Assembly: GCA_916610825.1 (NCBI GenBank)
Contig: OU744452.1
Span: forward strand, 3,383,543 to 3,447,542
Source: Haliclystus octoradiatus
Taxonomy: Eukaryota > Cnidaria > Staurozoa > Stauromedusae > Haliclystidae
DNA length: 64,000 nucleotides
Direction: 5' to 3'
This document shows, piece after piece, positions 14,357 to 50,380 of this stretch (the stretch's first letter is position 1; every line of letters begins with the position of its first letter). The notes below the pieces were generated by a model, which was not told the DNA's origin, did no database searches, and saw only the letters and a list, made by a program, of their open reading frames with translations. The translations under genes and the position numbers were made by a program.

Positions 14357-16012
14357 CATGGTTTTTGGTCATTTTGCACACCCTTGAAAATTAGGCATTT
14401 TTTTAGGTCTATTTGAACTCCAATCATTGTTTTTGGTAATTTTGAACGGCGTTGGGAATTATCCATTGCTTTTGGTTATTTTGAACTCCCATCATGGTTT
14501 TTGGTAAATATGAACTCTCTCGGGAGTTACGCAACATTCTTGATAATTTTGAACTTCCATGGGACTCAGGCATTTTTTTTGGTCATTTTAAACACTTTTA
14601 TGAGATATGCATCATTTGCACTCTCTTGGGAATTAGGCAAAAGATTTTGTGATATTGCACTCCCTTGGGATTTAGGCATTGTTTTTTATCATTTTACACA
14701 TTCTTTGGAATTAGACATTGTATTTTGTCATTTTGCATTACATTGGGAATTAGAATATGTTTTTGGTCATTTTCCACACCTTTGGAAACTAGACATAGTT
14801 TTAGATCATTTTTAATTCCCATGGGAGTTATGCATCATTTTCGTCATTTTGGGACTCTTTTATGAGTTATGCGTAATTTTGATGATTTTGCACTCTTTCG
14901 AGAATTAGGCATTACTTTTGGTCATTTTCAAATAACATGGGATTTATGCATCTTGTTTGGTGATTTTGAACTCCTTTGGGAGTTATCTATTGTTTTTGGT
15001 CAAATTAAGCTCTCTTCGGAGTTATGTATGATTCTTGGTCGTTTTGCACTCTTTCCAGAATTAGGCATTACTTTTGGTCATTTTGAACTCTATTGGTAAT
15101 TATACATCAGTTTTGGTCATTTTGCACACCCTTTGGAATTAGGAATTGTTTTTGGTAATTTTGCACCCCTTTGGAGATTAGACATTGTTTTTGGTCATTT
15201 TGAACACTCTTGGTAGTTATGCATCATTTATGGTCATTTTGGGACTGTTTTATGAGTTATTCGTCATTTTAGTCATTTTGAACTTTTTTGAGAATTAGGC
15301 ATCGCTTTTGAATATTTTGAACTCCCTTGGAAGTTATGCATCATGTTTGGTCATTTTGAAATCCCTTGGGAGTTATGCATCATGCTTGGTCGTTTTGAAC
15401 TTCCATGCCACTTGGCATTGTTTTTAGTCATTTTGCACTCCTTTGGGAATTAGGCATTGTTTTTGATCATTTTGCACACCCTTGTTAATTAGAAATTGTT
15501 TTTTGTCATTTCGAAATCTATTAGGAATTATGCATCATTTTTGGTCACTTTGAGCTTCCAGGAGGCTCAGGCATTGTTCCTGGTCATTTTAAACTCCCTT
15601 GGAAGTTAAGCATCATGTTTGGTCATTTTGAACTCCCTTTGGAGTTATGCATCATGTTTGGTCGTTTTGATCTTCCATGCATCTTAGGCATTGTTTTTGG
15701 TCCTTTTGAACTCTTTTATGAGTTATGCATTATTTTGCACTCTCTAGAAAATTAGGCATGGTTTTTTGTCATTTTGCACACCCTTGAAAATTTATGCATT
15801 TATTTGGTCATTTTGAACTCTCATCATTGTTTTTGGTAATTTTTACCTCCCATTGGAGTGATGCATCATTTTGGTCATTTTGAATTACCTTGGGAATGAG
15901 ACATTGTTTTTGGTCATTTTGAACAGCCTTGGAAATTATCCATTGCTTTTTGTTATTTTGAACTCCCATCATTGTTTTTGATAATTTTGAACTTCCATGG
16001 GACTCAGGCATT
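14357..16012 (+). repeat. type F block
   Basis: Satellite with a monomer order differing from types A and B. Markers are 'CTTTCCAGAATTAGGC' near 15053, 'TCCATGCCACTTGGC' near 15403, 'GAGCTTCCAGGAGGC' near 15551 and 'CTTCCATGCATCTTAGG' near 15673. The same markers in the same order appear at 61068-61710 and 62613-63255, and in shortened form at 56200-56560. It then joins type B sequence at about 16013. Confidence 0.75.
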
Positions 16013-25000: not shown

Positions 25001-28000
25001 AACTAGACATTGTTTTAGATCATTTTTAACTCCCATGGGAGTTATGCATCATTTTCGTCATTCTGGGACTCTTTTATGAGTTATGCGTAATTTTGATCAT
25101 TTTGCACTCTTTCGAGAATTAGGCATTACTTTTGGTCATTTTCAAATAACATGGGATTTATGCATCATGTTTGGTGATTTTGAACTCCTTTGGGAGTTAT
25201 CTATTGTTTTTGGTCAAATTAAGCTCTCTTCGGAGTTATGTATCATTCTTGGTCGTTTTGCACTCCCTCCATAATTAGGCATTACTTTTAGTCATTTTGA
25301 ACTCTATTGGTAATTATACATCATTTTTGGTCATTTTGCACACCCTTTGGAATTAGGAATTGTTTTTGGTAATTTTGCACCCCTTTGGAAATTAGACATT
25401 GTTTTTGGTCCTTTTGAACTCTTTTATGAGTTATGCATTATTTTGCACTCTCTAGAAAATTAGGCATGGTTTTTTGTCATTTTGCACACCCTTGAAAATT
25501 TATGCATTTATTTGGTCATTTTGATCTCTCATCATTGTTTTTGGTAATATTTACCTCCCATTGGAGTGATGCATCATTTTGGTCATTTTGAATTACCTTG
25601 GGAATGAGACATTGTTTTTGGTCATTTTGAACAGCCTTGGAAATTATCCATTGCTTTTTGTTATTTTGAACTCCCATCATTGTTTTTGATAATTTTGAAC
25701 TTCCATGGGACTCAGGCATTGTGTTTGGTCATTTTAAACATTCTTGGGAATTATACATTGTTTTTTGTCATTTTGCTGTAGATTGGGAGTTAGAATATGT
25801 TTTTGATCATTTTGCACACCTTTGGGAATTAGACATTGTTTTAGATCATTTTAAATTCCCACAGGAGTTATGCATCATTTTCGTCATTTTGGGACTCTTT
25901 TATGAGTTATGCGTAATTTTGATCATTTTGCACTCTTTCGAGAATTAGGCATTACTTTTGGTCAGTTTGAACACCCATGGGACTTATGCATCATGTTTGG
26001 TCATTTTGAACTCCTTTGGGAGTTATCTATTGTTTTCGGTCAAATTGAACTCTCTTCGGAGTTATGTATCATTCTTTGTCATTTTGCACTCCCTTGGGAA
26101 TTAGGCGTTGCTTTTTGTTATTTTGAACTCCCATCATTGTTTCTGGTCATTTTAAAATCCCATGGGAGTTATGCATCATTTTGATTATTTTGAATTACCT
26201 TGGGATTAGACATTGTTTTGGTCATTTTGATCTCTATTGTTAATTATACATCATTTTTGGTCATTTAGCACACCCTTTGGAATTAAATATTGTTTTTGGT
26301 CATTTTAAACACTGTTGGTAGTTGTTCATCATTTATGGCCATTTTAGGACTCTTTTATGAGTTATGGGTCATTTTGCAGTCTTTCAACAATTAGGCATTA
26401 CTTTTGGGAACTTGGAACTCAATTGGGAGTTAATCATCCTGTTTGGTCGTTCTGAACTTCCATGGGACATAGGCATTGTTTTTGGTAATTTTGCACAATC
26501 TTGGAAATTAGACATTGTTTTTATTCATTTTGAACTCTCTTGGTAGTTATGTATCTTTTTTGGTCACTTTGGACTTTCTTATGAGTTATGCGTCATTTTG
26601 ATCATTTTGCACTCTTTCGAGAATTAGGCATTACTGTTGGTCATGTTGAACTCCCCTGGAGTTATGCCTCATGTTTGGTCGTTTTGAACTTCCATGGGAC
26701 TCAGGCATTGTTTTTGGTCATTTTGAACTCTTTTATGAGTTATGCATCACTTTGCACTCTCTTGGGAATTGGGCATTGTTTTTTGTCATTTTGCACATTC
26801 TTGGGAATTAGACATTGTTTTTTGTCATTTTGCACTACCTTGGGAATTAGAATATGTTTTTGGTCATCTTGCACACCTTTGGAAATTAGACATTGTTTTT
26901 GGTCATTTTGTGAACACTCTTGGTAGTTATGCATTGTTTTTGGTCATTTTGAACTCTTTTTTAAGTTATGCATCATTTTGCACTCTATAGAGAATTAGGC
27001 ATGGTTTTTGGTCATTTTGCACACCCTTGAAAATTAGGCATTTGTTTAGGTCTATTTGAACTCCAATCATTGTTTTTGGTAATTTTGAACAGCGTTGGGA
27101 ATTATCCATTGCTTTTTGTTATTTTGAATTCCCATCATGGTTTTTGGTAATTATGAACTCTCTCAGGAGTTACGCAACATTCTTGATAATTTTGAACTTC
27201 CATGGGACTCAGGCATTTTTTTGGTCATTTTAAACACTTTTATGAGATATGCATCATTTGCACTCCCTTGAGAATTAGGCAAAAGATGGGTGAAATTGCA
27301 CTACCTTGTGATTTAGGCATTGTTTTTTATCATTTTACACATTCTTGGGAATTAGACAAGGTATTTTTTCATTTTGCATAACATTGGGAATTAGAATATG
27401 TTTTTGGTCATTTTCCACACCTTTGGAAACTAGACATTGTTTTAGATCATTTTTAACTCCCATGGGAGTTATGCATCATTTTCGTCATTCTGGGACTCTT
27501 TTATGAGTTATGCGTAATTTTGATCATTTTGCACTCTTTCGAGAATTAGGCATTACTTTTGGTCATTTTCAAATAACATGGGATTTATGCATCATGTTTG
27601 GTGATTTTGAACTCCTTTGGGAGTTATCTATTGTTTTTGGTCAAATTAAGCTCTCTTCGGAGTTATGTATCATTCTTGGTCGTTTTGCACTCCCTCCATA
27701 ATTAGGCATTACTTTTAGTCATTTTGAACTCTATTGGTAATTATACATCATTTTTGGTCATTTTGCACACCCTTTGGAATTAGGAATTGTTTTTGGTAAT
27801 TTTGCACCCCTTTGGAAATTAGACATTGTTTTTGGTCCTTTTGAACTCTTTTATGAGTTATGCATTATTTTGCACTCTCTAGAAAATTAGGCATGGTTTG
27901 TTGTCATTTTGCACACCCTTGAAAATTTATGCATTTATTTGGTCATTTTGAACTCTCATCATTGTTTTTTGGTAATTTTTACCTCCCATTGGAGTGATGC

Positions 28001-28791
28001 ATCATTTTGGTCATTTTGAATTACCTTGGGAATGAGACATTGTTTTTGGTCATTTTGAACAGCCTTGGAAATTATCCATTGCTTTTTGTTATTTTGAACT
28101 CCCATCATTTTTTTTGATAATTTTGAACTTCCATGGGACTCAGGCATTGTGTTTGGTCATTTTAAACATTATTGGGAATTATACATTGTTTTTTGTCATT
28201 TTGCTGTAGATTGGGAGTTAGAATATGTTTTTGATCATTTTGCACACCTTTGGGAATTAGACATTGTTTTAGATCATTTTAAATTCCCACAGGAGTTATG
28301 CATCATTTTCGTCATTTTGGGACTCTTTTATGAGTTATGCGTAATTTTGATCATTTTGCACTCTTTCGAGAATTAGGCATTACTTTTGGTCAGTTTGAAC
28401 ACCCATGGGACTTATGCATCATGTTTGGTCATTTTGAACTCCTTTGGGAGTTATCTATTGTTTTCGGTCAAATTGAACTCTCTTCGGAGTTATGTATCAT
28501 TCTTTGTCATTTTGCACTCCCTTGGGAATTAGGCATTGCTTTTTGTTATTTTGAACTCCCATCATTGTTTCTGGTCATTTTAAAATCCCATGGGAGTTAT
28601 GCATCATTTTGATTATTTTGAATTACCTTGGGATTAGACATTGTTTTGGTCATTTTGATCTCTATTGTTAATTATACATCATTTTTGGTCATTTAGCACA
28701 CCCTTTGGAATTAAATATTGTTTTTGGTCATTTTAAACACTGTTGGTAGTTGTTCATCATTTATGGCCATTTTAGGACTCTTTTATGAGTT
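16013..28791 (+). repeat. type B higher-order array, 2427-bp unit x5
   Basis: Landmarks repeat at exactly 2427 bp: TTATGGGTCATTTTGCAG sites at 16656, 19083, 21510, 23937 and 26364, then 28792 (2428). A lead-in of the same type starts at 16013. Units are almost identical over 12 kb. Variants have a graded distribution. 'TTTGATGATTTTGAACTC' is in the unit portions around 17890, 20317 and 22744 but not around 25170 or 27600. 'TTATTAATTCTCTTAGG' is only near 19870 and 22297. 'TATACATTG' replaces 'TAGACATTG' near 18470, 20897, 23324, 25751 and 28179. Each unit spans about 62 monomers. Confidence 0.94.
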
Positions 28792-31700
28792 ATGGGTCAT
28801 TTTGCAGTCTTTCAACAATTAGGCATTACTTTTGGGAACTTGGAACTCAATTGGGAGTTAATCATCCTGTTTGGTCGTTCTGAACTTCCATGGGACATAG
28901 GCATTGTTTTTGGTAATTTTGCACAACCTTGGAAATTAGACATTGTTTTTATTGATTTTGAACTCTCTTGGTAGTTATGTATCATTTTTGGTCACTTTGG
29001 ACTTTCTTATGAGTTATGCGTCATTTTGATCATTTTGCACTCTTTCGAGAATTAGGCATTACTATTGGTCATGTTGAACTCCCCTGGAGTTATGCCTCAT
29101 GTTTGGTCGTTTTGAACTTCCATGGGACTCAGGCATTGTTTTTGGTCATTTTGAACTCTTTTATGAGTTATGCATCACTTTGCACTCTCTTGGGAATTGG
29201 GCATTGTTTTTTGTCATTTTGCACATTATTGGGAATTAGACATTGTTTTTTGTCATTTTGCACTACCTTGGGAATTAGAATATGTTTTTGGTCATCTTGC
29301 ACACCTTTGGAAATTAGACATTGTTTTTGGTCATTTTGTGAACACTCTTGGTAGTTATGCATTGGTTTTGTTCATTTTGAACTCCCTTGGAAGTTATGCA
29401 TCATGATTGGTCATTTTGAACTCCCTTGGGAATTAGGCATTGGTTTTTGTTATTTTGAACTCCCATCATTGTTTCTGGACATTTTAAAATCCCATGGGAG
29501 TTATGCATCATTTTGGTCATTTTGAATTACCTTGGGAGTTATGCATTGTTTTTGGTCATTTTGAACTCTTTTATAAGTTATGCATCATTTTGCACTCTAT
29601 AGAGAATTATGCATTGTTTTTTGTCATTTTGCACATTCTTGGGAATTAGACATTGTTTTTTGTCATTTTGCACTACCTTGGAAATTAGAATATGTTTTTG
29701 GTCATCTTGCACACCTTTTGAAATTAGACATTGTTTTTGGTCATTTTGTGAACACTCTTGGTAGTTATGAATCATTTATGGTAATTTTGGGACTCTTTTA
29801 TGATGTTTGCGTCAATTTGATCATTTTGAACTTTTTTGAGAATTAGGCATTGCTTTTGTTCATTTTGAACTCCCTTGGAAGTTATGCATCATGATTGGTC
29901 ATTTTGAACTCCCTTGGGAGTTATGCATTGTTTTTGGTCATTTTGAACTCTTTTATAAGTTATGCATCATTTTGCACTCTATAGAGAATTAGGCATGGTT
30001 TTTGGTCATTTTGCACACCCTTGAAAATTAGGCATTTTTTTAGGTCTATTTGAACTCCAATCATTGTTTTTGGTAATTTTGAACAGCGTTGGGAATTATC
30101 CATTGCTTTTTGTTATTTTGAACTCCCATCATGGTTTTTGGTAATTATGAACTCTCTCGGGAGTTACGCAACATTCTTGATAATTTTGAACTTCCATGGG
30201 ACTCGGTATTTTTTTGGTCATTTTAAACACTTTTATGAGATATGCATCATTTGCACTCTCTTGGGAATTAGACAAAAGATTTGTGATATTGCACTCCCTT
30301 GTGATTTAGGCATTGTTTTTTATCATTTTACACATTCTTGAGAATTAGACATTGTATTTTGTCATTTTGCATTACATTGGGAATTAGAATATGTTTTTGG
30401 TCATTTTCCACACCTTTGGAAACTGGACATTGTTTTAGATCATTTTTAACTCCCATGGGAGTTATGCATCATTTTCGTCATTTTGGGACTCTTTTATGAG
30501 TTATGCGTAATTTTGATCATTTTGCACTCTTTGGAGAATTAGGCATTACTTTTGGTCATTTTCAAATAACATAGGATTTATGCATCATGTATGGTGATTT
30601 TGAACTCCTTTGGGAGTTATCTATTGTTTTTGGTCAAATTAAGCTCTCTTCGGAGTTATGTATCATTCTTGGTCGTTTTGCACTCTCTCCATAATTAGGC
30701 ATTACTTTTGGCCATTTTGAAATCTATTGGTAATTATACATCATTTTTGGTCATTTTGGACACCCTTTGAAATTAGGAATTGTTTTTGGTAATTTTGCAC
30801 CCTTTTGGAAATTAGACATCGTTTTTGGTCATTTTGAACACTCTTGGTAGTTATGCATCATTTATGGTCATTTTGGGACTGTTTTATGAGTTATTCGCCA
30901 TTTTAGTCATTTTGAACTTTTCTGAGAATTAGGCATCGCATTTGTATATTTTTAACTCCCTTGGAAGTTATGTATCATTCTTGGTCATTTTGCACTCCCT
31001 TGGGAATTAGGCATTGGTTTTTGTTATTTTGAACTCCCATCATTGTTTCTGGACATTTTAAAATCCCATGGGAGTTATGCATCATTTTGGTCATTTTGAA
31101 TTACCTTGGGATTAGACATTGTTTTGGTCATTTTGAACTCTATTGTTAATTATACATCATTTTTGGTCATTTAGCACACCCTTTGGAATTTACTATTGTT
31201 TTTGGTCTTTTTAAACACTGTTGGTAGTTGTTCATCATTTATGGCCATTTTGGGACTCTTTTATGAGTTATGGGTCATTTTGCAGTCTTTCAAGAATTAG
31301 GCATTACTTTTGGGAACTTGGAGCTCAATTGGGAGTTAATCATCATGTTTGGTCGTTTTGAACGTCCATGGGACATAGGCATTGTTTTTGGTCATTTTGC
31401 ACAATCTTGGAAATTAGACATTGTTTTTATTCATTTTGAACTCTCTTGGTAGTTATGTATCATTTTTGGTCACTTTGGACTTTTTTATAAGTTATGCGTC
31501 ATTTTGATCATTTTGCACTCTTTCGAGAATTAGGCATTACTGTTGGTCATGTTGAACTCCCCTGGAGTTATGCCTTATGTTTGGTCGTTTTGAACTTCCA
31601 TGGGACTCAGGCATTGTTTTTTGTCATTTTGAACTCTTTTATGAGTTATGCATCACTTTGCACTCTCTTGGGAATTGGGCATTGTTTTTTGTCATTTTGC

Positions 31701-33747
31701 ACATTATTGGGAATTAGACATTGTTTTTTGTCATTTTGCACTACCTTGGGAATTAGAATATGTTTTTGGTCATCTTGCACACCTTTGGAAATTAGACATT
31801 GTTTTTGGTCATTTTGTGAACACTCTTGGTAGTTATGCATTGGTTTTGTTCATTTTGAACTCCCTTGGAAGTTATGCATCATGATTGGTCATTTTGAACT
31901 CCCTTGGGAATTAGGCATTGGTTTTTGTTATTTTGAACTCCCATCATTGTTTCTGGACATTTTAAAATCCCATGGGAGTTATGCATCATTTTGGTCATTT
32001 TGAATTACCTTGGGAGTTATGCATTGTTTTTGGTCATTTTGAACTCTTTTATAAGTTATGCATCATTTTGCACTCTATAGAAAATTATGCATTGTTTTTT
32101 GTCATTTTGCACATTCTTGGGAATTAGACATTGTTTTTTGTCATTTTGCACTACCTTGGAAATTAGAATATGTTTTTGGTCATCTTGCACACCTTTTGAA
32201 ATTAGACATTGTTTTTGGTCATTTTGTGAACACTCTTGGTAGTTATGAATCATTTATGGTAATTTTGGGACTCTTTTATGATGTTTGCGTCAATTTGATC
32301 ATTTTGAACTTTTTTGAGAATTAGGCATTGCTTTTGTTCATTTTGAACTCCCTTGGAAGTTATGCATCATGATTGGTCATTTTGAACTCCCTTGGGAGTT
32401 ATGCATTGTTTTTGGTCATTTTGAACTCTTTTATAAGTTATGCATCATTTTGCACTCTATAGAGAATTAGGCATGGTTTTTGGTCATTTTGCACACCCTT
32501 GAAAATTAGGCATTTTTTTAGGTCTATTTGAACTCCAATCATTGTTTTTGGTAATTTTGAACAGCGTTGGGAATTATCCATTGCTTTTTGTTATTTTGAA
32601 CTCCCATCATGGTTTTTGGTAATTATGAACTCTCTCGGGAGTTACGCAACATTCTTGATAATTTTGAACTTCCATGGGACTCGGTATTTTTTTGGTCATT
32701 TTAAACACTTTTATGAGATATGCATCATTTGCACTCTCTTGGGAATTAGACAAAAGATTTGTGATATTGCACTCCCTTGTGATTTAGGCATTGTTTTTTA
32801 TCATTTTACACATTCTTGAGAATTAGACATTGTATTTTGTCATTTTCCATTACATTGGGAATTAGAATATGTTTTTGGTCATTTTCCACACCTTTGGAAA
32901 CTGGACATTGTTTTAGATCATTTTTAACTCCCATGGGAGTTATGCATCATTTTCGTCATTTTGGGACTCTTTTATGAGTTATGCGTAATTTTGATCATTT
33001 TGCACTCTTTGGAGAATTAGGCATTACTTTTGGTCATTTTCAAATAACATAGGATTTATGCATCATGTATGGTGATTTTGAACTCCTTTGGGAGTTATCT
33101 ATTGTTTTTGGTCAAATTAAGCTCTCTTCGGAGTTATGTATCATTCTTGGTCGTTTTGCACTCTCTCCATAATTAGGCATTACTTTTGGCCATTTTGAAA
33201 TCTATTGGTAATTATACATCATTTTTGGTCATTTTGGACACCCTTTGAAATTAGGAATTGTTTTTAGTAATTTTGCACCCTTTTGGAAATTAGACATCGT
33301 TTTTGGTCATTTTGAACACTCTTGGTAGTTATGCATCATTTATGGTCATTTTGGGACTGTTTTATGAGTTATTCGCCATTTTAGTCATTTTGAACTTTTT
33401 TGAGAATTAGGCATCGCATTTGTATATTTTTAACTCCCTTGGAAGTTATGTATCATTCTTGGTCATTTTGCACTCCCTTGGGAATTAGGCATTGGTTTTT
33501 GTTATTTTGAACTCCCATCATTGTTTCTGGACATTTTAAAATCCCATGGGAGTTATGCATCATTTTGGTCATTTTGAATTACCTTGGGATTAGACATTGT
33601 TTTGGTCATTTTGAACTCTATTGTTAATTATACATCATTTTTGGTCATTTAGCACACCCTTTGGAATTTACTATTGTTTTTGGTCTTTTTAAACACTGTT
33701 GGTAGTTGTTCATCATTTATGGCCATTTTGGGACTCTTTTATGAGTT
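28792..33747 (+). repeat. type C higher-order array, 2 x 2478 bp
   Basis: Units 28792-31269 and 31270-33747. Later parts are nearly identical at a 2478-bp offset, for example the 'CATGGGACTCGGTATTTT' variant at about 30195 and 32673, 'CATCATGTATGGTG' at about 30584 and 33062, and 'TTTGGAGAATTAGG' at about 30530 and 33008. The first 200-300 bp of the first unit still carries type B variants (TTTCAACAATTAGG), so the B/C transition lies inside it. Confidence 0.9.
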
Positions 33748-35737
33748 ATGGGTCATTTTGCAGTCTTTCAAGAATTAGGCATTACTTTTGGGAACTTGGA
33801 GCTCAATTGGGAGTTAATCATCATGTTTGGTCGTTTTGAACGTCCATGGGACATAGGCATTGTTTTTGGTCATTTTGCACAATCTTGGAAATTAGACATT
33901 GTTTTTATTCATTTTGAACTCTCTTGGTAGTTATGTATCATTTTTGGTCACTTTGGACTTTTTTATAAGTTATGCGTCATTTTGATCATTTTGCACTCTT
34001 TCGAGAATTAGGCATTACTGTTGGTCATGTTGAACTCCCCTGGAGTTATGCCTTATGTTTGGTCGTTTTGAACTTCCATGGGACTCAGGCATTGTTTTTT
34101 GTCATTTTGAACTCTTTTATGAGTTATGCATCACTTTGCACTCTCTTGGGAATTGGGCATTGTTTTTTGTCATTTTGCACATTCTTGGGAATTAGACATT
34201 GTTTTTGGTCATTTTGTGAACACTCTTGGTAGTTATGAATCATTAATAGTCATTTTGGAACTCTTTTATGATGTTTGCGTCATTTTGATCATTTTGAACT
34301 TTTTTGAGAATTAGGCATTGCTTTTGTTCATTTTGAACTCCCTTGGAAGTTATGCATCATGATTGGTCATTTTGAACTCCCTTGGGAGTTATGCATTGTT
34401 TTTGGTCATTTTGAACTCTTTTATAAGTTATGCATCATTTTGCACTCTATAGAGAATTAGGCATGGTTTTTGGTCATTTTGCACACCCTTGAAAATTAGG
34501 CATTTTTTTAGGTCTATTTGAACTCCAATCATTGTTTTTGGTAATTTTGAACAGCGTTGGGAATTATCCATTGCTTTTTGTTATTTTGAACTCCCATCAT
34601 GGTTTTTGGTAATTATGAACTCTCTCGGGAGTTACGCAACATTCTTGATAATTTTGAACTTCCATGGGACTCGGTATTTTTTTGGTCATTTTAAACACTT
34701 TTATGAGATATGCATCATTTGCACTCTCTTGGGAATTAGACAAAAGATTTGTGATATTGCACTCCCTTGTGATTTAGGCATTGTTTTTTATCATTTTACA
34801 CATTCTTGAGAATTAGACATTGTATTTTGTCATTTTCCATTACATTGGGAATTAGAATATGTTTTTGGTCATTTTCCACACCTTTGGAAACTGGACATTG
34901 TTTTAGATCATTTTTAACTCCCATGGGAGTTATGCATCATTTTCGTTATTTTGGGACTCTTTTATGAGTTATGCGTAATTTTGATCATTTTGCACTCTTT
35001 CGAGAATTAGGCATTACTTTTGGTCATTTTCAAATAACATAGGATTTATGCATCATGTATGGTGATTTTGAACTCCTTTGGGAGTTATCTATTGTTTTTG
35101 GTCAAATTAAGCTCTCTTCGGAGTTATGTATCATTCTTGGTCGTTTTGCACTCTCTCCATAATTAGGCATTACTTTTGGCCATTTTGAAATCTATTGGTA
35201 ATTATACATCATTTTTGATCATTTTGGACACCCTTTGGAATTAGGAATTGTTTTTGGTAATTTTGCACCCTTTTGGAAATTAGACATTGTTTTTGGTCAT
35301 TTTGAACACTCTTGGTAGTTATGCATCATTTATGGTAATTTTGGGACTGTTTTATGAGTTATTCGCCATTTTAGTCATTTTGAACTTTTTTGAGAATTAG
35401 GCATCGCATTTGTATATTTTTAACTCCCTTGGAAGTTATGTATCATTCTTGGTCATTTTGCACTCCCTTGGGAATTAGGCATTGCTTTTTGTTATTTTGA
35501 ACTCCCATCATTGTTTCTGGTCATTTGAAAATCCCATGGGAGTTATGCATCATTTTGGTCATTTTGAATTACCTTGGGATTAGACATTGTTTTGGTCATT
35601 TTGAACTCTATTGTTAATTATATATCATTTTTGGTCATTTAGCACACCCTTTGGAATTAACTATTGTTTTTGGTCATTTTAAACACTGTTGGTAGTTGTT
35701 CATCATTTATGGCCATTTTGGGACTCTTTTATGAGTT
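33748..35737 (+). repeat. third type C unit with ~488-bp internal deletion
   Basis: This unit is 1990 bp long instead of 2478. Alignment by landmarks keeps a 2478-bp offset up to about 34200 and 1990 bp afterwards. The material equivalent to about 31722-32210 is therefore absent. Both breakpoints fall in copies of TAGACATTGTTTTT, consistent with unequal recombination between two monomers of the same unit. Confidence 0.88.
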
Positions 35738-38433: not shown

Positions 38434-38446
38434 ATTGCTTTTTGTT
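38434..38446 (+). other. duplication breakpoint microhomology, left
   Basis: ATTGCTTTTTGTT in ordinary satellite context (preceded by GGC, followed by ATTTTGAACTCCC). It is one of the two parental sequences of the duplication junction. Confidence 0.85.
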
Positions 38447-40481
38447 ATTTTGAACTCCCATCATTGTTTCTGGTCATTTGAAAATCCCATGGGAGTTATG
38501 CATCATTTTGGTCATTTTGAATTACCTTGGGATTAGACATTGTTTTGGTCATTTTGAACTCTATTGTTAATTATATATCATTTTTGGTCATTTAGCACAC
38601 CCTTTGGAATTAACTATTGTTTTTGGTCATTTTAAACACTGTTGGTAGTTGTTCATCATTTATGGCCATTTTGGGACTCTTTTATGAGTTATGGGTCATT
38701 TTGCAGTCTTTCAAGAATTAGGCATTACTTTTGGGAACTTGTAGCTCAATTGGGAGTTAATCATCATGTTTGGTCGTTTTGAACTTCCATGGGACATAGG
38801 CATTGTTTTTGGTCATTTTGCACAATCTTGGAAATTAGACATTGTTTTTATTCATTTTGAACTCTCTTGGTACTTATGTATCATTTTTGGTCACTTTGGA
38901 CTTTTTTATGAGTTATGCGTCATTTTGATCATTTTGCACTCTTTCGAGAATTAGGCATTACTGTTGGTCATGTTGAACTCCCCAGGAGTTATGCCTCATG
39001 TTTGGTCGTTTTGAACTTCCATGGGACTCAGGCATTGTTTTTGGTCATTTTGAACTCTTTTATGAGTTATGCATCACTTTGCACTCTCTTGGGAATTGGG
39101 CATTGTTTTTTTGTCATTTTGCACATTCTTGGGAATTATCCATTGCTTTTTGTTATTTTGAACTCCCATCATGGTTTTTGGTAATTATGAACTCTCTCGG
39201 GAGTTACGCAACATTCTTGATAATTTTGAACTTCCATGGGACTCAGGCATTTTTTTGGTCATTTTAAACACTTTTATGAGATATGCATCATTTGCACTCT
39301 CTTGGGAATTAAGCAAAAGATTGGTGATATTGCACTCCCTTGGGATTTAGGCATTGTTTTTTATCATTTTACACATTCTTGAGAATTAGACATTATATTT
39401 TGTCATTTTGCATTACATTGGGAATTAGAATATGTTTTTGGTCATTTTCCACACCTTTGTAAACTAGACATTGTTTTAGATCATTTTTAACTCCCATGGG
39501 AGTTATGCATCATTTTCGTCATTTTGGGACTCTTTTATGAGTTATGCGTAATTTTGATCATTTTGCACTCTTTCGAGAATTAGGCATTACTTTTGGTCAT
39601 TTTCAAATAACATGGGATTTATGCAGCATGTTTGGTGATTTTGAACTCCTTCGGGAGTTATCTATTGTTTTTGGTCAAATTAAGCTCTCTTCGGAGTTAT
39701 GTATCATTCTTGGTCGTTTTGCACTCTCTCCATAATTAGGCATTACTTCTGGTCATTTTGAACACTTTTGGTAGTTATGCATCATTTATGGTCATTTTGG
39801 GACTGTTTTATGAGTTATTCGTCATTTTAGTCATTTGGAATTTTTTTGAGAATTAGGCATCACTTTAGTATATTTTGAACTCCCTTGGAAGTTATGCATC
39901 ATGTTTGATCATTTTGAACTCCCTTGGGAGTTTTGCATCATGTTTGGTCGTTTTGAACTTCCATGCCACTTGGCATTGTTTTTAGTCATTTTGCACTCCT
40001 TTGGGAATTAGGCATTGTTTTTGATCATTTTGCACACCCTTGTTAATTAGAAATTGTTTTTTGTCATTTCGAAATCTATTGGGAATTATGCATCATTTTT
40101 GGTCACTTTGAGCTTCCAGGAGGCTCAGGCATTGTTCCTGGTCATTTTAAACTTCCATGGCAGTTATGCATCATTTTGGCCATTTTGAATTACCTTGGGA
40201 ATTATCCATTGCTTTTTGTTATTTTAAAATCCCATCATTGTTTTTGATAATTTTTGACTCCCATGGGAGTTATGCATCATTTTCGTCATTTTGGGACTCT
40301 TTTATGAGTTATGCGTAATTTTGATCATTTTGCACTACATTGGAAATTAGAATATGTTTTTGGTCATTTTCCACACCTTTGGAAACTGGACATTGTTTTA
40401 GATCATTTTTAACTCCCATGGGAGTTATGCATCATTTTCGTCATTTTGGGACTCTTTTATGAGTTATGCGTAATTTTGATC

Positions 40482-40495
40482 ATTTTGCACTCTTT
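40482..40495 (+). repeat. target-site duplication, left flank (copy 1)
   Basis: ATTTTGCACTCTTT directly precedes the first non-satellite base (TTGTTTCCTAAATAG). The identical 14-mer begins the satellite on the far side of the complete insert at 50367. Confidence 0.8.
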
Positions 40496-40516
40496 TTGTT
40501 TCCTAAATAGTAACTA

Positions 40517-40540
40517 TCAATGGAATGTTCGTTCCATTGA
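40517..40540 (+). other. perfect 9-bp stem hairpin at insert left end
   Basis: TCAATGGAA, loop TGTTCG, TTCCATTGA: nine perfectly paired bases starting 22 bp inside the insert boundary. A second smaller inverted repeat (AAGGGT-ACTA-ACCCTT) lies at 40579-40594. Their closeness to the presumed 3' end of the element could matter for RNA recognition, but that is speculation. Confidence 0.7.
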
Positions 40541-40790
40541 CATTACTACAGTTTTAACCTTCAACGTCCCTCATGGGAAAGGGTACTAACCCTTGATTCT
40601 TTATGGGTGTGTGATCGCTGGGAGGGAGGCTGCATGTCTCGAATAGTGTTCCTGTCCTAGTAATTATAACGGACTGTTTCTCTATCTGATTGTTGTATAT
40701 CACTGATTGTACAAAATTAATGTTATATAGCTACAGTGAAACTATTATATAAGACACTATTCTTTGGCATTGGATTAGTGGTCATTAAGA

Positions 40791-40824
40791 GAGGTGATCA
40801 CTATATTGAGGTGATCATTATATC
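40791..40824 (+). repeat. short 17-bp direct repeat
   Basis: GAGGTGATCACTATATT is followed immediately by GAGGTGATCATTATATC. Each contains the palindrome TGATCA. The same pair is at 46649-46682. No function is inferred. Confidence 0.6.
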
Positions 40825-41589
40825 ATGTTTGATTCTATCCAGTAATTGTTATCATTCAGAATTATACCTTCATGTCATTAGGGGTATTGGATATCACTGC
40901 TCCATTGATCCTGTCTCGTTTTTATGTTAGTATTTTTGTTTGCCTACTGATTTTCCTGTTAATTTTTTAGTATTATTTTTCCGATTTATTAATTCTAATT
41001 TATGTTTTAGGGTCTTTACTTGGTTTTAGAGAAGTCAGTTGATGTTCTCAATTTGTCTGGATCCAGATACGGCCTTTGGTGTAGATTTTATTGGTTGGGT
41101 TATGCTGATCCGCTGCTGTTCTGTGTGCTGTTACATATTTATATTGTTAATACATCCTGTGTATATTTATTTTAATTATTAATTATTACTATTATTACCT
41201 TGGTATGATGTCTGTTGTGATCCTCTTGGAGTTAGCTTCATTTGCCTTTCACTGTCCTGAACGTTAATATTCTGTTCGTGATTTTGTAATGATGTGTTAA
41301 TTTATTATATCTTGCCTTTGGAGAACCATATTAGTCGTTGTAGACAGGTGGTCTCTGTTTTAGGTGTTCATATCTCGTTATCAGGTTCCCATTGAGTCAA
41401 TGGACGATTTAATTGTTTTACATTTGTTATGTCTGATTTAGAGTGATGTGAGATAGGACCAGTTGGTTAGAAGTGATATCCGCCCATCCCATGACATGAC
41501 TGGGGCTATAGGAGTTGTTTTGGTGTTTCTTGTATAGTTCATAGTTTTAGGGTGGACACCATCTTGTGTGTCCCCCACTGATTCTACAT

Positions 41590-41750
41590 TTTCGCGCTTG
41601 ATACTGAGCAAGGCAGTTTGGAGTTCGGCGCGCATAAAATCAGGCTGACGCGTTTCGTTTGTCGAGAGCCCAGGTTAAAACCCGTTGGCTAAAGCAAACT
41701 CATCAGAGCGACGCACCGAGAGGGTATGTCCGGAGACACGGGGATCCGAG
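41590..41750 (+). promoter_or_regulatory. CpG-dense stretch in insert (copy 1)
   Basis: Well over a dozen CG dinucleotides fall within about 160 bp (for example TTTTCGCGCTTG, TCGGCGCGCATAAAA, TGACGCGTTTCG, GAGCGACGCACCGAG), while the surrounding insert and the satellite are CpG-poor. A TATA-like CATAAAAT lies just after GGCGCG. It could be a promoter, the 5' end of a transcript, or older GC-rich coding sequence. I cannot tell which strand would be transcribed. Confidence 0.35.
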
Positions 41751-42967
41751 TCAGTATCGAAAAAGCAAGCCTTGATTGGAAAAGGAATGGTATTTCCTCT
41801 TCAATTCAGAGTTTTGAAAATATTTGAAAGTGTTCATCAATCAGTTCAAAAAATGTTAAGTTTTCTCAAATTGTTTGCAAGAATTTTCTATCATATAAAT
41901 GCCGAAAAACTCACTGTAGGTATCCCTACTCGGAGATGTGTTTTGGAGCGTCTTTTTCATATAAAAAAGTTTGAATTTTTTGGCGAGATGTTCGTTTCAG
42001 TGTTCGAAATTCGATCAAGGGTTAAAATAAAATCAATAATAAAATAAAAGATAACGAAAACATAGTATACTTGCAATAAAAATATCCAATAGTTAGATGT
42101 AACAGTGCCTATATATATTGATAATTCATTGAGGACAAAATATGCTGAACTGTGTTTCATATCAATTGGCAAATGTTCAATGATTTCATCAAGTGGTCCA
42201 TGATGAAGCACGTGGTGGCGTGATGGTGCGTCTTCTGAAAACCTAGTTATTGGAGCATGCCCTGCATCCGTCTTATGATATCAATTGCCTTGTTGATAAA
42301 TTATCATAGTCCTACAGTTTATTTTGTAATAGGTGTAGATTAATAAGTGTACCTTGGATTGATATTTTGATAATAATTTTTGATTTGTGTCTTTTGACTA
42401 ACTCTAGTGATGATAAATCGGGAAGAGAAATTTTAAGGCCAAGCACGAGGTACTTATCGATTTTATTTGCCCTTCGTTCATTGGTTGTAGTCATGGTTAT
42501 TTATTGGGTGGAGGATTATAAATCCTTTGGCTCAGGAGGAGGCTCTGCTCCGAGAAAGAGGTTCGTTAGCTAGATCCGATCGGGTTTATTGGATTCAGAA
42601 CATTCCTAAATATAGGATCCAAAATGGTAGAGCTGAATTGTATTTATGGAGTATTATTAAACTTAAATTACTTGGGAATTGGGATTACTTTGTTATTAGT
42701 TCATGGGTATATGGTTCGGGATTCATCTACGAATTGTTTGTTGGGGGACATTGGAAAGTGGAATGTCCACTGGTAAGTTTTTTAAATCATTGTTTTATCG
42801 TATCTTTGACTTGGTCTTTCTAACTGTCTTTCCTTCGGCTTCGGTCACCTGACGGTCATAGGGCTGTTGCTGTTGGTAGAATCATATAGCATTATATGAT
42901 TAGGTGGAGGTATTATGTGCTGTAATTCTCGTCTAGCTGGTTTGTTGGAGCCTGTTTTCCTATTAAA

Positions 42968-43378
42968 ATATGGAGATGTCAGATGGGGTTCTGTTGTATT
43001 TTTTGGACTTGTGGAGATGGTATATAGTTATAAAATGGGAGGTATCAGGTAGAAGTGTTTGGTGGGGTTATACTGTGTCTCATGGATCTGCTATGCTGAC
43101 TGACGGTTTAAAAGTATTTTAAGTGGGGAGGGGTCAGATAGGGGGTGTTTAATGGGATTATTTTGTGTTTCATGGTTTTGTTTTACTGGTGTGTATTGTA
43201 TAAAGTGGGGGGTATTAGATAGGAATGTTTTATGAGCTTTTACTGTATCTCATGGATCTGGTGTGCTGGTTTATGGTTCAAATGTGTTCTAGCCGAAAAG
43301 TGTCTGATAGGGGGTGTTTGATGAGGCTCTGTTGTGTTTCTTGGATTCGATGAACTGGTTCAATAGGTCTAGTATTTT
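42968..43378 (+). repeat. diverged minisatellite, period 82-90 bp (copy 1)
   Basis: About five related units start near 42968, 43033, 43123, 43205 and 43293. Each opens with a G-rich GTGGGG(A/G)GG..TCAG/TTAG-AT motif, continues with GGGGTGTTTGATGGG-like and TGTGTTTCATGGATCTG-like segments, and ends in an A/T-rich joint. Units are substantially diverged from each other, unlike the satellite. No frame is open across it. Confidence 0.65.
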
Positions 43379-44271
43379 AAAACCAAATTATTATTGTAAT
43401 AAATACGGATTGGAGATAATAAATGTAGCCTGAAGGGTATTTATTGATATTTTTTAATCATCTTGAAATTAAGACCAATACATGCTATTTTTTGTTGATA
43501 TTGTAAGTTATATAGAGATAATCAAATTAATGTTGTTGTATATAAGAACTCATAACTATTGTTTGTTGTGATCCGTTGTTTAACTTGATATTTCAGTTAT
43601 CAACTTGTTTAATTATAGTGCTATGAATATATAGATATACGACTCTGGTTTTTGAAAATAGGAGTCAATTAGTCAAATACATTAAATTGTATGGAGCTAC
43701 TAAATGTAGGCTGATGTGACATACATGTGATTGTTATCAGTATTTTTAAATTTTTAACATTGATAGATAATTAGGTGGGTATGTCTATTTTATATATTTA
43801 TTCATATAGTTCATGTCTCATAGTTTTTTATCCATTGGTTGTTTCCTTGGTTATGTTGCCATGGCCATTCTCTATTTCTCATGATTGTATTCTGTTTTTG
43901 GCCGACTTTCGATGCATTGGTCTGAAGTTGAGGAGTCTATTTATTTATCCTATGTTCGAGGTCAAATAACGTGGGTACTTGTACCATGGAGGGAGTATAA
44001 TAGTGGATCTATTTACTGAATCTATGGGTTAGTGTTTGATAAGTAAGAGTTGCATTGTAATTGAGATATATTTGACGTTCCTTCAGTCATTAATTTCAGG
44101 GTGATAGGGATGGCCTAGGTTATCAATGTGGGGGGGGTGTCTAGATATTTGATTCATTGTTTTGAAGTTGATTTCGGAAGTGCTCACAGTGGAGTTGGTC
44201 CCTGGTATGGATCAGGTGGTTTTTTATGTTTAAATGCCGTTTATAAGTGAGTGTGGGTTGAAGGCGACAGA

Positions 44272-44284
44272 ATTGCTTTTTGTT
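44272..44284 (+). other. duplication junction with 13-bp microhomology
   Basis: ATTGCTTTTTGTT joins insert sequence on its left (AAGGCGACAGA, as at 50119-50129) to satellite on its right (ATTTTGAACTCCC, as at 38447). The 13 bases are shared by both parents (38434-38446 and 50130-50142), so the exact crossover is ambiguous within them. Confidence 0.9.
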
Positions 44285-44635
44285 ATTTTGAACTCCCATC
44301 ATTGTTTCTGGTCATTTGAAAATCCCATGGGAGTTATGCATCATTTTGGTCATTTTGAATTACCTTGGGATTAGACATTGTTTTGGTCATTTTGAACTCT
44401 ATTGTTAATTATATATCATTTTTGGTCATTTAGCACACCCTTTGGAATTAACTATTGTTTTTGGTCATTTTAAACACTGTTGGTAGTTGTTCATCATTTA
44501 TGGCCATTTTGGGACTCTTTTATGAGTTATGGGTCATTTTGCAGTCTTTCAAGAATTAGGCATTACTTTTGGGAACTTGTAGCTCAATTGGGAGTTAATC
44601 ATCATGTTTGGTCGTTTTGAACTTCCATGGGACAT

Positions 44636-44656
44636 TGTGCTACATTGTGCTCAAAT
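44636..44656 (+). other. 20-bp net insertion with 10-bp direct duplication
   Basis: Copy 1 reads GGGACATAGGCATTG (near 38790). Copy 2 has 21 bases in place of one A. ACATTGTGCT is present twice in a row at 44632-44641 and 44642-44651, followed by CAAAT. This looks like a templated filler insertion in the second copy. All other satellite copies examined have the short form. Confidence 0.85.
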
Positions 44657-46339
44657 GGCATTGTTTTTGGTCATTTTGCACAATCTTGGAAATTAGACAT
44701 TGTTTTTATTCATTTTGAACTCTCTTGGTACTTATGTATCATTTTTGGTCACTTTGGACTTTTTTATGAGTTATGCGTCATTTTGATCATTTTGCACTCT
44801 TTCGAGAATTAGGCATTACTGTTGGTCATGTTGAACTCCCCAGGAGTTATGCCTCATGTTTGGTCGTTTTGAACTTCCATGGGACTCAGGCATTGTTTTT
44901 GGTCATTTTGAACTCTTTTATGAGTTATGCATCACTTTGCACTCTCTTGGGAATTGGGCATTGTTTTTTTGTCATTTTGCACATTCTTGGGAATTATCCA
45001 TTGCTTTTTGTTATTTTGAACTCCCATCATGGTTTTTGGTAATTATGAACTCTCTCGGGAGTTACGCAACATTCTTGATAATTTTGAACTTCCATGGGAC
45101 TCAGGCATTTTTTTGGTCATTTTAAACACTTTTATGAGATATGCATCATTTGCACTCTCTTGGGAATTAAGCAAAAGATTGGTGATATTGCACTCCCTTG
45201 GGATTTAGGCATTGTTTTTTATCATTTTACACATTCTTGAGAATTAGACATTATATTTTGTCATTTTGCATTACATTGGGAATTAGAATATGTTTTTGGT
45301 CATTTTCCACACCTTTGTAAACTAGACATTGTTTTAGATCATTTTTAACTCCCATGGGAGTTATGCATCATTTTCGTCATTTTGGGACTCTTTTATGAGT
45401 TATGCGTAATTTTGATCATTTTGCACTCTTTCGAGAATTAGGCATTACTTTTGGTCATTTTCAAATAACATGGGATTTATGCAGCATGTTTGGTGATTTT
45501 GAACTCCTTCGGGAGTTATCTATTGTTTTTGGTCAAATTAAGCTCTCTTCGGAGTTACGTATCATTCTTGGTCGTTTTGCACTCTCTCCATAATTAGGCA
45601 TTACTTTTGGTCATTTTGAACACTTTTGGTAGTTATGCATCATTTATGGTCATTTTGGGACTGTTTTATGAGTTATTCGTCATTTTAGTCATTTGGAATT
45701 TTTTTGAGAATTAGGCATCACTTTTGTATATTTTGAGCTCCCTTGGAAGTTATGCATCATGTTTGATCATTTTGAACTCCCTTGGGAGTTTTGCATCATG
45801 TTTGGTCGTTTTGAACTTCCATGCCACTTGGCATTGTTTTTAGTCATTTTGCACTCCTTTGGGAATTAGGCATTGTTTTTGATCATTTTGCACACCCTTG
45901 TTAATTAGAAATTGTTTTTTGTCATTTCGAAATCTATTGGGAATTATGCATCATTTTTGGTCACTTTGAGCTTCCAGGAGGCTCAGGCATTGTTCCTGGT
46001 CATTTTAAACTTCCATGGCAGTTATGCATCATTTTGGCCATTTTGAATTACCTTGGGAATTATCCATTGCTTTTTGTTATTTTAAAATCCCATCATTGTT
46101 TTTGATAATTTTTGACTCCCATGGGAGTTATGCATCATTTTCGTCATTTTGGGACTCTTTTATGAGTTATGCGTAATTTTGATCATTTTGCACTACATTG
46201 GAAATTAGAATATGTTTTTGGTCATTTTCCACACTTTTGGAAACTGGACATTGTTTTAGATCATTTTTAACTCCCATGGGAGTTATGCATCATTTTCGTC
46301 ATTTTGGGACTCTTTTATGAGTTATGCGTAATTTTGATC

Positions 46340-46353
46340 ATTTTGCACTCTTT
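46340..46353 (+). repeat. target-site duplication, left flank (copy 2)
   Basis: The same 14-mer, ATTTTGCACTCTTT, left of the complete insert copy. It pairs with 50367-50380. Confidence 0.82.
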
Positions 46354-46374
46354 TTGTTTCCTAAATAGTAAGTA

Positions 46375-46398
46375 TCAATGGAATGTTCGTTCCATTGA
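46375..46398 (+). other. perfect 9-bp stem hairpin, second copy
   Basis: Duplicate of the hairpin at 40517-40540, with stem and loop unchanged although a base just upstream differs between the copies (TAACTATC versus TAAGTATC). Confidence 0.7.
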
Positions 46399-47447
46399 CA
46401 TTACTACAGTTTTAACCTTCAACGTCCCTCATGGGAAAGGGTACTAACCCTTGATTCTTTATGGGTGTGTGATCGTTGGGAGGGAGGCTGCATGTCTCGA
46501 ATAGTGTTCCTATCCTAGTAATTATAACGGACTGTTTCTCTATCTGATTGTTGTATATCACTGATTGTACAAAATTAATGTTATATAGCTACAGTGAAAC
46601 TATTATATAAGACACTATTCTTTGGCATTGGATTAGTGGTCATTAAGAGAGGTGATCACTATATTGAGGTGATCATTATATCATGTTTGATTCTATCCAG
46701 TAATTGTTATCATTCAGAATTATACCTCCATGTCATTAGGGGTATTGGATATCACTGCTCCATTGATCCTGTCTCGTTTTTATGTTAGTATTTTTGTTTG
46801 CCTACTGATTTTCCTGTTAATTTTTTAGTATTATTTTTCCGATTTATTAATTCTAATTTATGTTTTAGGGTCTTTACTTGGTTTTAGAGAAGTCAGTTGA
46901 TGTTCTCAATTTGTCTGGATCCAGATACGGCCTTTGGTGTAGATTTTATTGGTTGGGTTATGCTGATCCGCTGCTGTTCTGTGTGCTGTTACATATTTAT
47001 ATTGTTAATACATCCTGTGTATATTTATTTTAATTATTAATTATTACTATTATTACCTTGGTATGATGTCTGTTGTGATCCTCTTGGAGTTAGCTTCATT
47101 TGCCTTTCACTTTCCTGAACGTTAATATTCTGTTCGTGATTTTGTAATGATGTGTTAATTTATTATATCTTGCCTTTGGAGAACCATATTAGTCGTTGTA
47201 GACAGGTGGTCTCTGTTTTAGGTGTTCATATCTCGTTATCAGGTTCCCATTGAGTCAATGGACGATTTAATTGTTTTACATTTGTTATGTCTGATTTAGA
47301 GTGATGTGAGATAGGACCAGTTGGTTAGAAGTGATATCCGCCCATCCCATAACATGACTGGGGCTATAGGAGTTGTTTTGGTGTTTCTTGTATAGTTCAT
47401 AGTTTTAGGGTGGACACCATCTTGTGTGTCCCCCACTGATTCTACAT

Positions 47448-47608
47448 TTTCGCGCTTGATACTGAGCAAGGCAGTTTGGAGTTCGGCGCGCATAAAATCA
47501 GGCTGACGCGTTTCGTTTGTCGAGAGCCCAGGTTAAAACCCGTTGGCTAAAGCAAACTCATCAGAGCGACGCACCGAGAGGGTATGTCCGGAGACACGGG
47601 GATCCGAG
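47448..47608 (+). promoter_or_regulatory. CpG-dense stretch in insert (copy 2)
   Basis: Duplicate of 41590-41750, without visible loss of CpGs to TpG/CpA between copies in this stretch. That fits a recent duplication. Confidence 0.35.
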
Positions 47609-48825
47609 TCAGTATCGAAAAAGCAAGCCTTGATTGGAAAAGGAATGGTATTTCCTCTTCAATTCAGAGTTTTGAAAATATTTGAAAGTGTTCATCAATC
47701 AGTTCAAAAAATGTTAAGTTTTCTCAAATTGTTTGCAAGAATTTTCAATCATATAAATGCCGAAAAACTCACTGTAGGTATCCCTACTCGGAGATGTGTT
47801 TTGGAGCGTCTTTTTCATATAAAAAAGTTTGAATTTTTTGGCGAGATGTTCGTTTCAGTGTTCGAAATTCGATCAAGGGTTAAAATAAAATCAATAATAA
47901 AATAAAAGATAACGAAAACATAGTATACTTGCAATAAAAATATCCAATAGTTAGATGTAACAGTGCCTATATATATTGATAATTCATTGAGGACAAAATA
48001 TGCTGAACTGTGTTTCATATCAATTGGCAAATGTTCAATGATTTCATCAAGTGGTCCATGATGAAGCACGTGGTGGCGTGATGGTGCGTCTTCTGAAAAC
48101 CTAGTTATTGGAGCATGCCCTGCATCCGTCTTATGATATCAATTGCCTTGTTGATAAATTATCATAGTCCTACAGTTTATTTTGTAATAGGTGTAGATTA
48201 ATAAGTGTACCTTGGATTGATATTTTGATAATAATTTTTGATTTGTGTCTTTTGACTAACTCTAGTGATGATAAATCGGGAAGAGAAATTTTAAGGCCAA
48301 GCACGAGGTACTTATCGATTTTATTTGCCCTTCGTTCATTGGTTGTAGTCATGGTTATTTATTGGGTGGAGGATTATAAATCCTTTGGCTCAGGAGGAGG
48401 CTCTGCTCCGAGAAAGAGGTTCGTTAGCTAGATCCGATCGGGTTTATTGGATTCAGAACATTCCTAAATATAGGATCCAAAATGGTAGAGCTGAATTGTA
48501 TTTATGGAGTATTATTAAACTTAAATTACTTGGGAATTGGGATTACTTTGTTATTAGTTCATGGGTATATGGTTCGGGATTCATCTACGAATTGTTTGTT
48601 GGGGGACATTGGAAAGTGGAATGTCCACTGGTAAGTTTTTTAAATCATTGTTTTATCGTATCTTTGACTTGGTCTTTCTAACTGTCTTTCCTTCGGCTTC
48701 GGTCACCTGACGGTCATAGGGCTGTTGCTGTTGGTAGAATCATATAGCATTATATGATTAGGTGGAGGTATTATGTGCTGTAATTCTCGTCTAGCTGGTT
48801 TGTTGGAGCCTGTTTTCCTATTAAA

Positions 48826-49236
48826 ATATGGAGATGTCAGATGGGGTTCTGTTGTATTTTTTGGACTTGTGGAGATGGTATATAGTTATAAAATGGGAGG
48901 TATCAGGTAGAAGTGTTTGGTGGGGTTATACTGTGTCTCATGGATCTGCTATGCTGACTGACGGTTTAAAAGTATTTTAAGTGGGGAGGGGTCAGATAGG
49001 GGGTGTTTAATGGGATTATTTTGTGTTTCATGGTTTTGTTTTACTGGTGTGTATTGTATAAAGTGGGGGGTATTAGATAGGAATGTTTTATGAGCTTTTA
49101 CTGTATCTCATGGATCTGGTGTGCTGGTTTATGGTTCAAATGTGTTCTAGCCGAAAAGTGTCTGATAGGGGGTGTTTGATGAGGCTCTGTTGTGTTTCTT
49201 GGATTCGATGAACTGGTTCAATAGGTCTAGTATTTT
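48826..49236 (+). repeat. diverged minisatellite, period 82-90 bp (copy 2)
   Basis: Duplicate of 42968-43378. I noticed no unit-number difference, so the array has not expanded or contracted since the tandem duplication. Confidence 0.65.
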
Positions 49237-50098
49237 AAAACCAAATTATTATTGTAATAAATACGGATTGGAGATAATAAATGTAGCCTGAAGGGTATTT
49301 ATTGATATTTTTTAATCATCTTGAAATTAAGACCAATACATGCTATTTTTTGTTGATATTGTAAGTTATATAGAGATAATCAAATTAATGTTGTTGTATA
49401 TAAGAACTCATAACTATTGTTTGTTGTGATCCGTTGTTTAACTTGATATTTCAGTTATCAACTTGTTTAATTATAGTGCTATGAATATATAGATATACGA
49501 CTCTGGTTTTTGAAAATAGGAGTCAATTAGTCAAATACATTAAATTGTATGGAGCTACTAAATGTAGGCTGATGTGACATACATGTGATTGTTATCAGTA
49601 TTTTTAAATTTTTAACATTGATAGATAATTAGGTGGGTATGTCTATTTTATATATTTATTCATATAGTTCATGTCTCATAGTTTTTTATCCATTGGTTGT
49701 TTCCTTGGTTATGTTGCCATGGCCATTCTCTATTTCTCATGATTGTATTCTGTTTTTGGCCGACTTTCGATGCATTGGTCTGAAGTTGAGGAGTCTATTT
49801 ATTTATCCTATGTTCGAGGTCAAATAACGTGGGTACTTGTACCATGGAGGGAGTATAATAGTGGATCTATTTACTGAATCTATGGGTTAGTGTTTGATAA
49901 GTAAGAGTTGCATTGTAATTGAGATATATTTGACGTTCCTTCAGTCATTAATTTCAGGGTGATAGGGATGGCCTAGGTTATCAATGTGGGGGGGGTGTCT
50001 AGATATTTGATTCATTGTTTTGAAGTTGATTTCGGAAGTGCTCACAGTGGAGTTGGTCCCTGGTATGGATCAGGTGGTTTTTTATGTTTAAATGCCGT

Positions 50099-50366
50099 TT
50101 ATAAGTGAGTGTGGGTTGAAGGCGACAGAATTGCTTTTTGTTGTTCTAGGAACGGTGTTAAGTAGTTCTTAAAGATAGGTTTTAGGAGTCGTTCAAAGTC
50201 AGGATGATATGGGAGTACTATTGGTAGGATTTGTTTGGATGTTGTTGGTGAGGGTTGTTCACTTTTCTGTTTTGAAAGTGTCAGTTTCATAGCTTTGAGG
50301 AGGGCGAGGGATGGATAGTCTCTCTCTATGAATGAAAGGTAGAGTAGATAAAGTCTGATGTGTAGG
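50099..50366 (-). pseudogene. coding-like remnant, possibly retroelement RT-linker region
   Basis: Reading the minus strand leftwards from the insert edge, one frame is open from 50365 to a stop at 50099, about 88 codons. It has no start needed at the edge. A methionine at 50290 is internal. The peptide contains ERDYPSLALLKAM, then a Ser/Gln/Pro-rich stretch, then LPIVLPYHPDFERLLKPIF and KNYLTPFL. The order R-x-Y-P...LL.KA, then LP-[IV]-V-x-x-Y-H/N-P...L..I...L recalls the segment after the reverse transcriptase core in Penelope-like and related animal elements. That is recall of a family pattern, not a database match. The frame ends soon after, so any protein is a fragment. It is cut at the insertion boundary, as expected for 5' truncation. 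The duplicate at 44241-44284 retains only the last codons. Confidence 0.35.
50130..50142 (+). other. duplication breakpoint microhomology, right
   Basis: ATTGCTTTTTGTT in its original insert context, preceded by GGCGACAGA and followed by GTTCTAGGAACGG. Left of it the sequence is present in both copies, and right of it only here. Confidence 0.85.
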
Positions 50367-50380
50367 ATTTTGCACTCTTT
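50367..50380 (+). repeat. target-site duplication, right flank
   Basis: ATTTTGCACTCTTT where satellite resumes, followed by GGAGAATTAGGCATTAC. The base before it differs from the left copy, and so do the bases after, so the repeat is exactly 14 bp. Confidence 0.82.

Follow-up and report, generated by a model that had tools for sequence, protein, structure and literature searches.

We analysed a 64-kb stretch of the Haliclystus octoradiatus genome (Cnidaria; Staurozoa; GenBank assembly GCA_916610825.1, contig OU744452.1, forward-strand positions 3,383,543 to 3,447,542), hereafter the window, in which a satellite with a 39-bp period was interrupted by a probably Penelope-like retrotransposon and the insert had been duplicated in tandem together with satellite DNA. 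All results came from one assembly. The genome that was searched comprised 262 Mb in 33 contigs, and the genome-wide counts of element and satellite matches are lower bounds. The window contained no N. Coordinates below refer to its plus strand unless the minus strand is stated.

Self-alignment of the window revealed two copies, W1 (38434-44284) and W2 (44272-50142), that were 99.46% identical. Their 13 differences comprised 12 substitutions and, in W2, an insertion of 20 bp. The repeat period was 5838 bp at the left and 5858 bp past this insertion. The inserted bases (44637-44656) had no other match in the window at up to two mismatches, and together with their flank they contained two tandem copies of ACATTGTGCT. 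A 5.8-kb repeat with such identity was far beyond chance, and the tandem duplication of satellite plus insert was real in the assembly. W1 consisted of satellite (38434-40495) followed by a retrotransposon fragment that ended at the junction. W2 had the same composition, with satellite at 44285-46353 followed by the retrotransposon; this copy ended at the position equivalent to the junction, and the element ran on past it to about 50366-50371.

The two copies were connected by a 13-bp junction word, ATTGCTTTTTGTT, at 44272-44284, with element on its left and satellite on its right. The word was also present in the satellite parent at the left breakpoint (38434-38446), where both flanks were satellite, and within the longer element of W2 (50130-50142), where both flanks were element. 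Thus, element DNA lay to the left of both 44272 and 50130, and satellite DNA to the right of the word at both 38447 and 44285. An initial annotation made from the sequence had placed a tandem duplication at 38434-50142, and both the identity of the copies and the flanks at the three word sites proved it right. Its proposal that the breakpoints lay in satellite on one side and within the insert on the other, with the insert being copied along with satellite, was borne out. It had further described the insert as part of a new higher-order unit. However, the genome matches listed and a genome-wide query combining the word with an element flank yielded just two copies of the compound unit, so this unit was not yet a higher-order repeat in the sense of a multi-copy array.

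The insert was delimited by comparison with other copies of the element. Its left edge (46353/46354) was common to element copies elsewhere in the genome. On the right side, most genomic copies extended past 50371, where the window copy ended and satellite started. Two longer copies that were read (L030 and L033) contained a minus-strand frame of 623 codons that was open at the locus edge. In L030 this frame matched reverse transcriptase (RVT_1, E=1.8e-14), with no relative in PDB at E 0.01, and three frames from the window had no Pfam match. Since the longer copies continued at the right and carried a minus-strand reverse transcriptase (RT) frame, the window copy was a minus-strand retrotransposon with a truncated 5' end. 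In W2 it occupied 46354-50366, with its 3' end at the left and its truncation at the right; the right edge can be given only as 50366-50371 because the bases ATTTT were shared with the flank. A C-terminal piece of the RT frame (50143-50371, minus strand) matched the 3' part of the L030 frame. The W1 copy (40496-44275, minus strand) was cut by the junction: its own bases extended to 44271, and the next four (ATTG, 44272-44275) were shared with the satellite. A target-site duplication, ATTTTGCACTCTTT, flanked the W2 copy at 46340-46353 and 50367-50380, and its length was between 9 and 14 bp because ATTTT belonged to the element as well. The left duplicate was also present in W1 (40482-40495), and its partner was not seen at the other end of that copy (44285 onward). 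The window contained 23 target sites without interruption (at most four mismatches).

This element was present elsewhere in the genome. Several copies each were clustered on C2 (17.84-17.86, 31.99-32.00 and 37.36-37.37 Mb), C4 (27.96-27.98 Mb), C6 (14.82-14.83 Mb) and C7 (1.69-1.70 Mb), and the best genomic copies were 94-99% identical to the window copy (46354-50366). The initial annotation had spoken of foreign DNA recruited into a satellite repeat. The insert was indeed copied with the satellite, but it was a resident retrotransposon with dozens of genome matches.

A number of private changes showed that the insert originated from one insertion event and not from two. Besides the pair of changes at the junction, W1 and W2 shared a base at 46474, 47085, 49034, 49226 and 49856 (W2 positions) that was absent from all other copies scored (18, 18, 14, 14 and 15 places, respectively). 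These counts left out L045, which was W1 itself, and rows repeating one place; the first piece of L035 was the copy of L021, the last piece of L021 was that of L035, and L046 was unaligned at 90%. W1 and W2 also had the same target flank and some 2 kb of satellite in common. Since none of the other copies scored had the shared changes, the element had inserted once and was then copied.

The initial annotation had assumed that the 13-bp word was present in both parents and guided the duplication. On the plus strand of the window this word occurred 47 times, and judged by position all occurrences except those at 44272 and 50130 were in satellite. None of the 17 other genomic copies of the element carried it. 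Instead, all 17 read ATTG-TATTTGTT or a close variant at the junction site, and none of them had the extra C or the A-to-T change seen in both window copies (CTT in place of TA). A genome-wide search for the word with an element flank returned two places only, both in the window (44272 and 50130). The native word had 12 exact, six one-mismatch and five two-mismatch places in the genome, some of which may be chance matches since a reversed control pattern gave three. Moreover, L030 and L033 read the native word in frame, whereas W2 was shifted there by one base. Thus, the other copies, the genome search and the open frames all argued that the native reading was ancestral. With this reading, the satellite at 38434 and the element shared only about 4 bp (ATTG), so that microhomology was found at the join over 4 bp and not over the claimed 13 bp. 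Had the locus formed by a simple duplication, position 50130 would have been in untouched parental sequence and the native reading would be expected there, which was not the case. The 13-bp match at the join was therefore more likely acquired after the duplication than its cause, and, given its absence from the 17 other copies, we took the word at 50130 as a conversion patch.

As a word shared by element and satellite, the 13-bp sequence was not exceptional. When 60 surrogates of the element were drawn from an order-1 Markov model, 46 had an exact match to the window satellite of 13 bp or more, and the element itself had a second 13-bp match to the satellite at 48529. Similarly, the native junction site did not stand out against the whole satellite, since 957 of 1098 local similarity peaks scored at least as high.

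The distribution of differences between the two copies provided a second mark. All 13 differences were within 38798-41889, and the next 2395 bp were identical, ending exactly at the join (41890-44284 in W1, the presumed conversion tract, and 47748-50142 in W2, the presumed recipient). If 13 differences were distributed randomly, a last gap of this length would have a probability of about 0.001, and any such gap one of about 0.015. When polarised against other copies, 10 of the 13 differences arose in W2 and three in W1 (six and one in the element, four and two in the satellite). Since most differences arose in W2, the tract chiefly lacked W2's own changes, as expected of an overwritten recipient. 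Thus, the locus showed both marks of gene conversion between duplicates, a long block of identity and satellite bases in W2.

We propose the following order of events. In the first step, documented by the anatomy of the insert, a probably Penelope-like retrotransposon entered the satellite in minus orientation, 5'-truncated and with duplication of 9-14 bp of target. In the second step, about 5.84 kb of satellite and most of the insert would have been duplicated in tandem when the element was joined to satellite upstream of it over the roughly 4 bp of ATTG; the join was plain in the assembly, and its mechanism was presumably end-joining or a replicative template switch. In the third step, the W1 element, which ended in satellite at the join, would have served as a template for the repair of W2. 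The copying would have spanned about 2.4 kb of shared element plus 3-9 bp of satellite and rejoined W2 within the common TTTGTT, thereby erasing the private changes of W2 in the tract and introducing the word from the satellite into the longer element. Such a conversion of W2 by W1, suggested by concordant marks at a single locus, would explain why 2395 identical bases ended exactly at the join. We considered it likely that insertion, duplication at ATTG and conversion followed each other in this order, with the 13-bp word as a conversion product. It was also somewhat more probable than its opposite that the locus is a natural record of conversion running past the end of homology, in which the junction copy overwrote its partner, overran by 3-9 bp and returned within a 6-bp match, so that the breakpoint microhomology of tandem duplications can be written later.

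Several observations weighed against this proposal. The conversion was deduced from a single locus in a single assembly. Taken alone, the identity run was improbable to a moderate degree only, and the copies also agreed fully over the initial 351 bp of the repeat past the word. By itself, the 10:3 asymmetry did not reach significance (P about 0.09, two-sided binomial). The shared private changes were neutral, with three in the 2395 bp of the tract (besides the junction pair) and two in the 1395 bp outside. When the comparison was limited to 120 bp of satellite from the true left breakpoint, the native site ranked 104th among 1103 similarity peaks, which was in the top tenth; guidance of the exchange by imperfect similarity at the native site was nevertheless disfavoured. 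Finally, polishing errors could mimic conversion, and mutation ahead of the duplication could have produced the word.

The last possibility would require two chance changes in the inserted element that created the 13-bp satellite match, which in turn guided the duplication. It accounted for the presence of the word in both copies today, and matches of this size came easily, since the longest match between element surrogate and satellite was 12-16 bp in all 60 surrogates. However, in simulations of seven random changes (six substitutions and one insertion), a new 13-bp satellite word included at least two of them in just 5 of 20,000 runs, compared with 523 of 20,000 for at least one change; a single complex change created such a word 321 times in 100,000. 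It also left unexplained why the identity tract stopped at the join, and we regarded it as unlikely. An artefact of assembly or polishing, in which W2 was corrected with reads from W1 or two haplotypes were set in tandem, deserved attention because satellite arrays are hard to assemble, our analysis was made from the assembled sequence, and mis-mapped polishing reads could imitate both the tract and the patch. Against it, 12 base differences and a 20-bp insertion showed that one sequence had not been laid down twice, a false haplotype join alone would not place satellite bases in W2, and the window was free of N; we thus judged an artefact rather improbable.

If the template had been switched repeatedly at one site during a single replicative event, the word and the duplication would have been produced together. 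Namely, a switch to satellite would make the duplication, and a brief switch and return during the second pass would leave the patch, with ATTG and TTTGTT as the switch points. This required the same switch twice and did not predict the 2395-bp identity tract, which made it very unlikely. It was hardly credible that the retrotransposon had inserted twice, or that Penelope-type retrotransposition had by itself generated a partial tandem. Penelope-like elements (PLEs) can occur as partial tandems that combine one full-length with one 5'-truncated copy (PMC3846280). Nevertheless, the five shared private changes, the common target flank and the 2 kb of nearly identical satellite between the copies all contradicted these origins, and a second target-site duplication was not seen at the W1 junction. 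Specifically, two independent insertions were rejected by the private changes common to W1 and W2, and a tandem made by retrotransposition by the shared satellite between the copies.

In addition to the duplication described above, the window contained three blocks of higher-order duplication of the satellite, at 2835-14447, 15267-29404 and 28473-34525, with units of about 3.05, 2.43 and 2.48 kb. By eye, the edges of these blocks looked in monomer phase, but a count of motif distances agreed at only three of six edges. The global identity of 60-bp flanks at the edges (0.58-0.68) did not discriminate them from random satellite (median 0.63), so the description of these blocks as in phase rests on the eye. 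The initial annotation had contrasted the present join with ordinary exchange between satellite repeats. This contrast may hold, but the motif count agreed with the phase of the other blocks at only half of their edges. The present join stood apart from them simply in having a non-satellite partner. Among the matches listed, all satellite matches returned were on contig C8 at about 3.12-3.52 Mb, and the satellite may therefore be confined to one chromosome region.

The insert probably belonged to the PLEs. The RT frame of L030 contained what we take to be PLE-type motifs. Canonical PLEs have a C-terminal GIY-YIG endonuclease, and endonuclease-deficient PLEs are without it. A motif scan of the W2 minus-strand frames gave no convincing GIY-YIG, and the longer copies were read only in part. 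The family assignment was thus likely rather than proven, since the endonuclease domain was unseen in the pieces examined. Clustered copies, a short target-site duplication and a hammerhead motif have been described as traits of PLEs (PMC3846280, PMC11167929). The window copy had a short target-site duplication (9-14 bp, by eye), and the genome matches listed included clusters of copies, mixed in orientation on C2 and C4 and uniform on C6 and C7, in keeping with the tandem, partial-tandem or inverted clusters of PLEs. A motif resembling a type III hammerhead ribozyme, with a long stem-loop II, was located on the minus strand at 41647-41717 in W1 and 47505-47575 in W2. It scored 22.6 bits against RF00008 (E 0.45), below the gathering threshold of 48.5 bits, and no gathering-level match was found in 10 sources. 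Its fold was no more stable than that of shuffled sequences (z-score 0.20). In a pattern scan of 58 loci, the hammerhead core was found at 16 loci outside the window, which corresponded to about 15 distinct places, with L027 and L052 duplicating places within L015 and L024. Together, the clustered copies and the short target-site duplication fitted a PLE, and the sub-threshold hammerhead-like motif was compatible with one.

Microhomology at a breakpoint is commonly taken as the cause of a rearrangement. At this locus, the copies of the element elsewhere served as an outgroup and indicated that most of the junction match was made later, probably by conversion between the two products of the duplication. 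Each step of the proposed history was of a known kind, and the instructive twist is that breakpoint microhomology can be acquired after the event. If this is true, surveys of breakpoints may overstate microhomology unless an outgroup copy is checked. More generally, the locus would represent one ordered case (insertion, duplication, conversion) of a transposable element starting to be copied with a satellite. It was not named in the titles and abstract openings of the literature searched, which we do not present as absence from print.

Compared with known systems, the window element resembled PLEs in several respects: its family had an RT frame in the longer copies, 5' truncation, a target-site duplication of short length, what looked by eye like a palindrome close to the 3' end, a sub-threshold hammerhead-like motif and clustered genomic copies. 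In contrast to canonical PLEs, the GIY-YIG endonuclease was unseen in the pieces of the element examined, and unlike PLEs it had several kilobases 3' of the RT frame. The locus can also be compared with retrotransposons in satellite arrays, such as the ATHILA elements of Arabidopsis centromeres, which reportedly inserted in the arrays and were duplicated with them. The window element similarly entered a satellite and was copied locally with flanking satellite; it differed in that only two copies were found here and one breakpoint was inside the element. Finally, in mammalian reporter cells, conversion that ended without homology to the second end was completed by microhomology joining or nucleotide addition (PMC5104497). 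The conversion proposed here would be similar, since copying would have continued past the sequence homologous to the second end and been closed through microhomology. In contrast to the breaks induced in mouse cells in that study, the present case would be a natural one, deduced from genomic DNA, with an overrun of just 3-9 bp.

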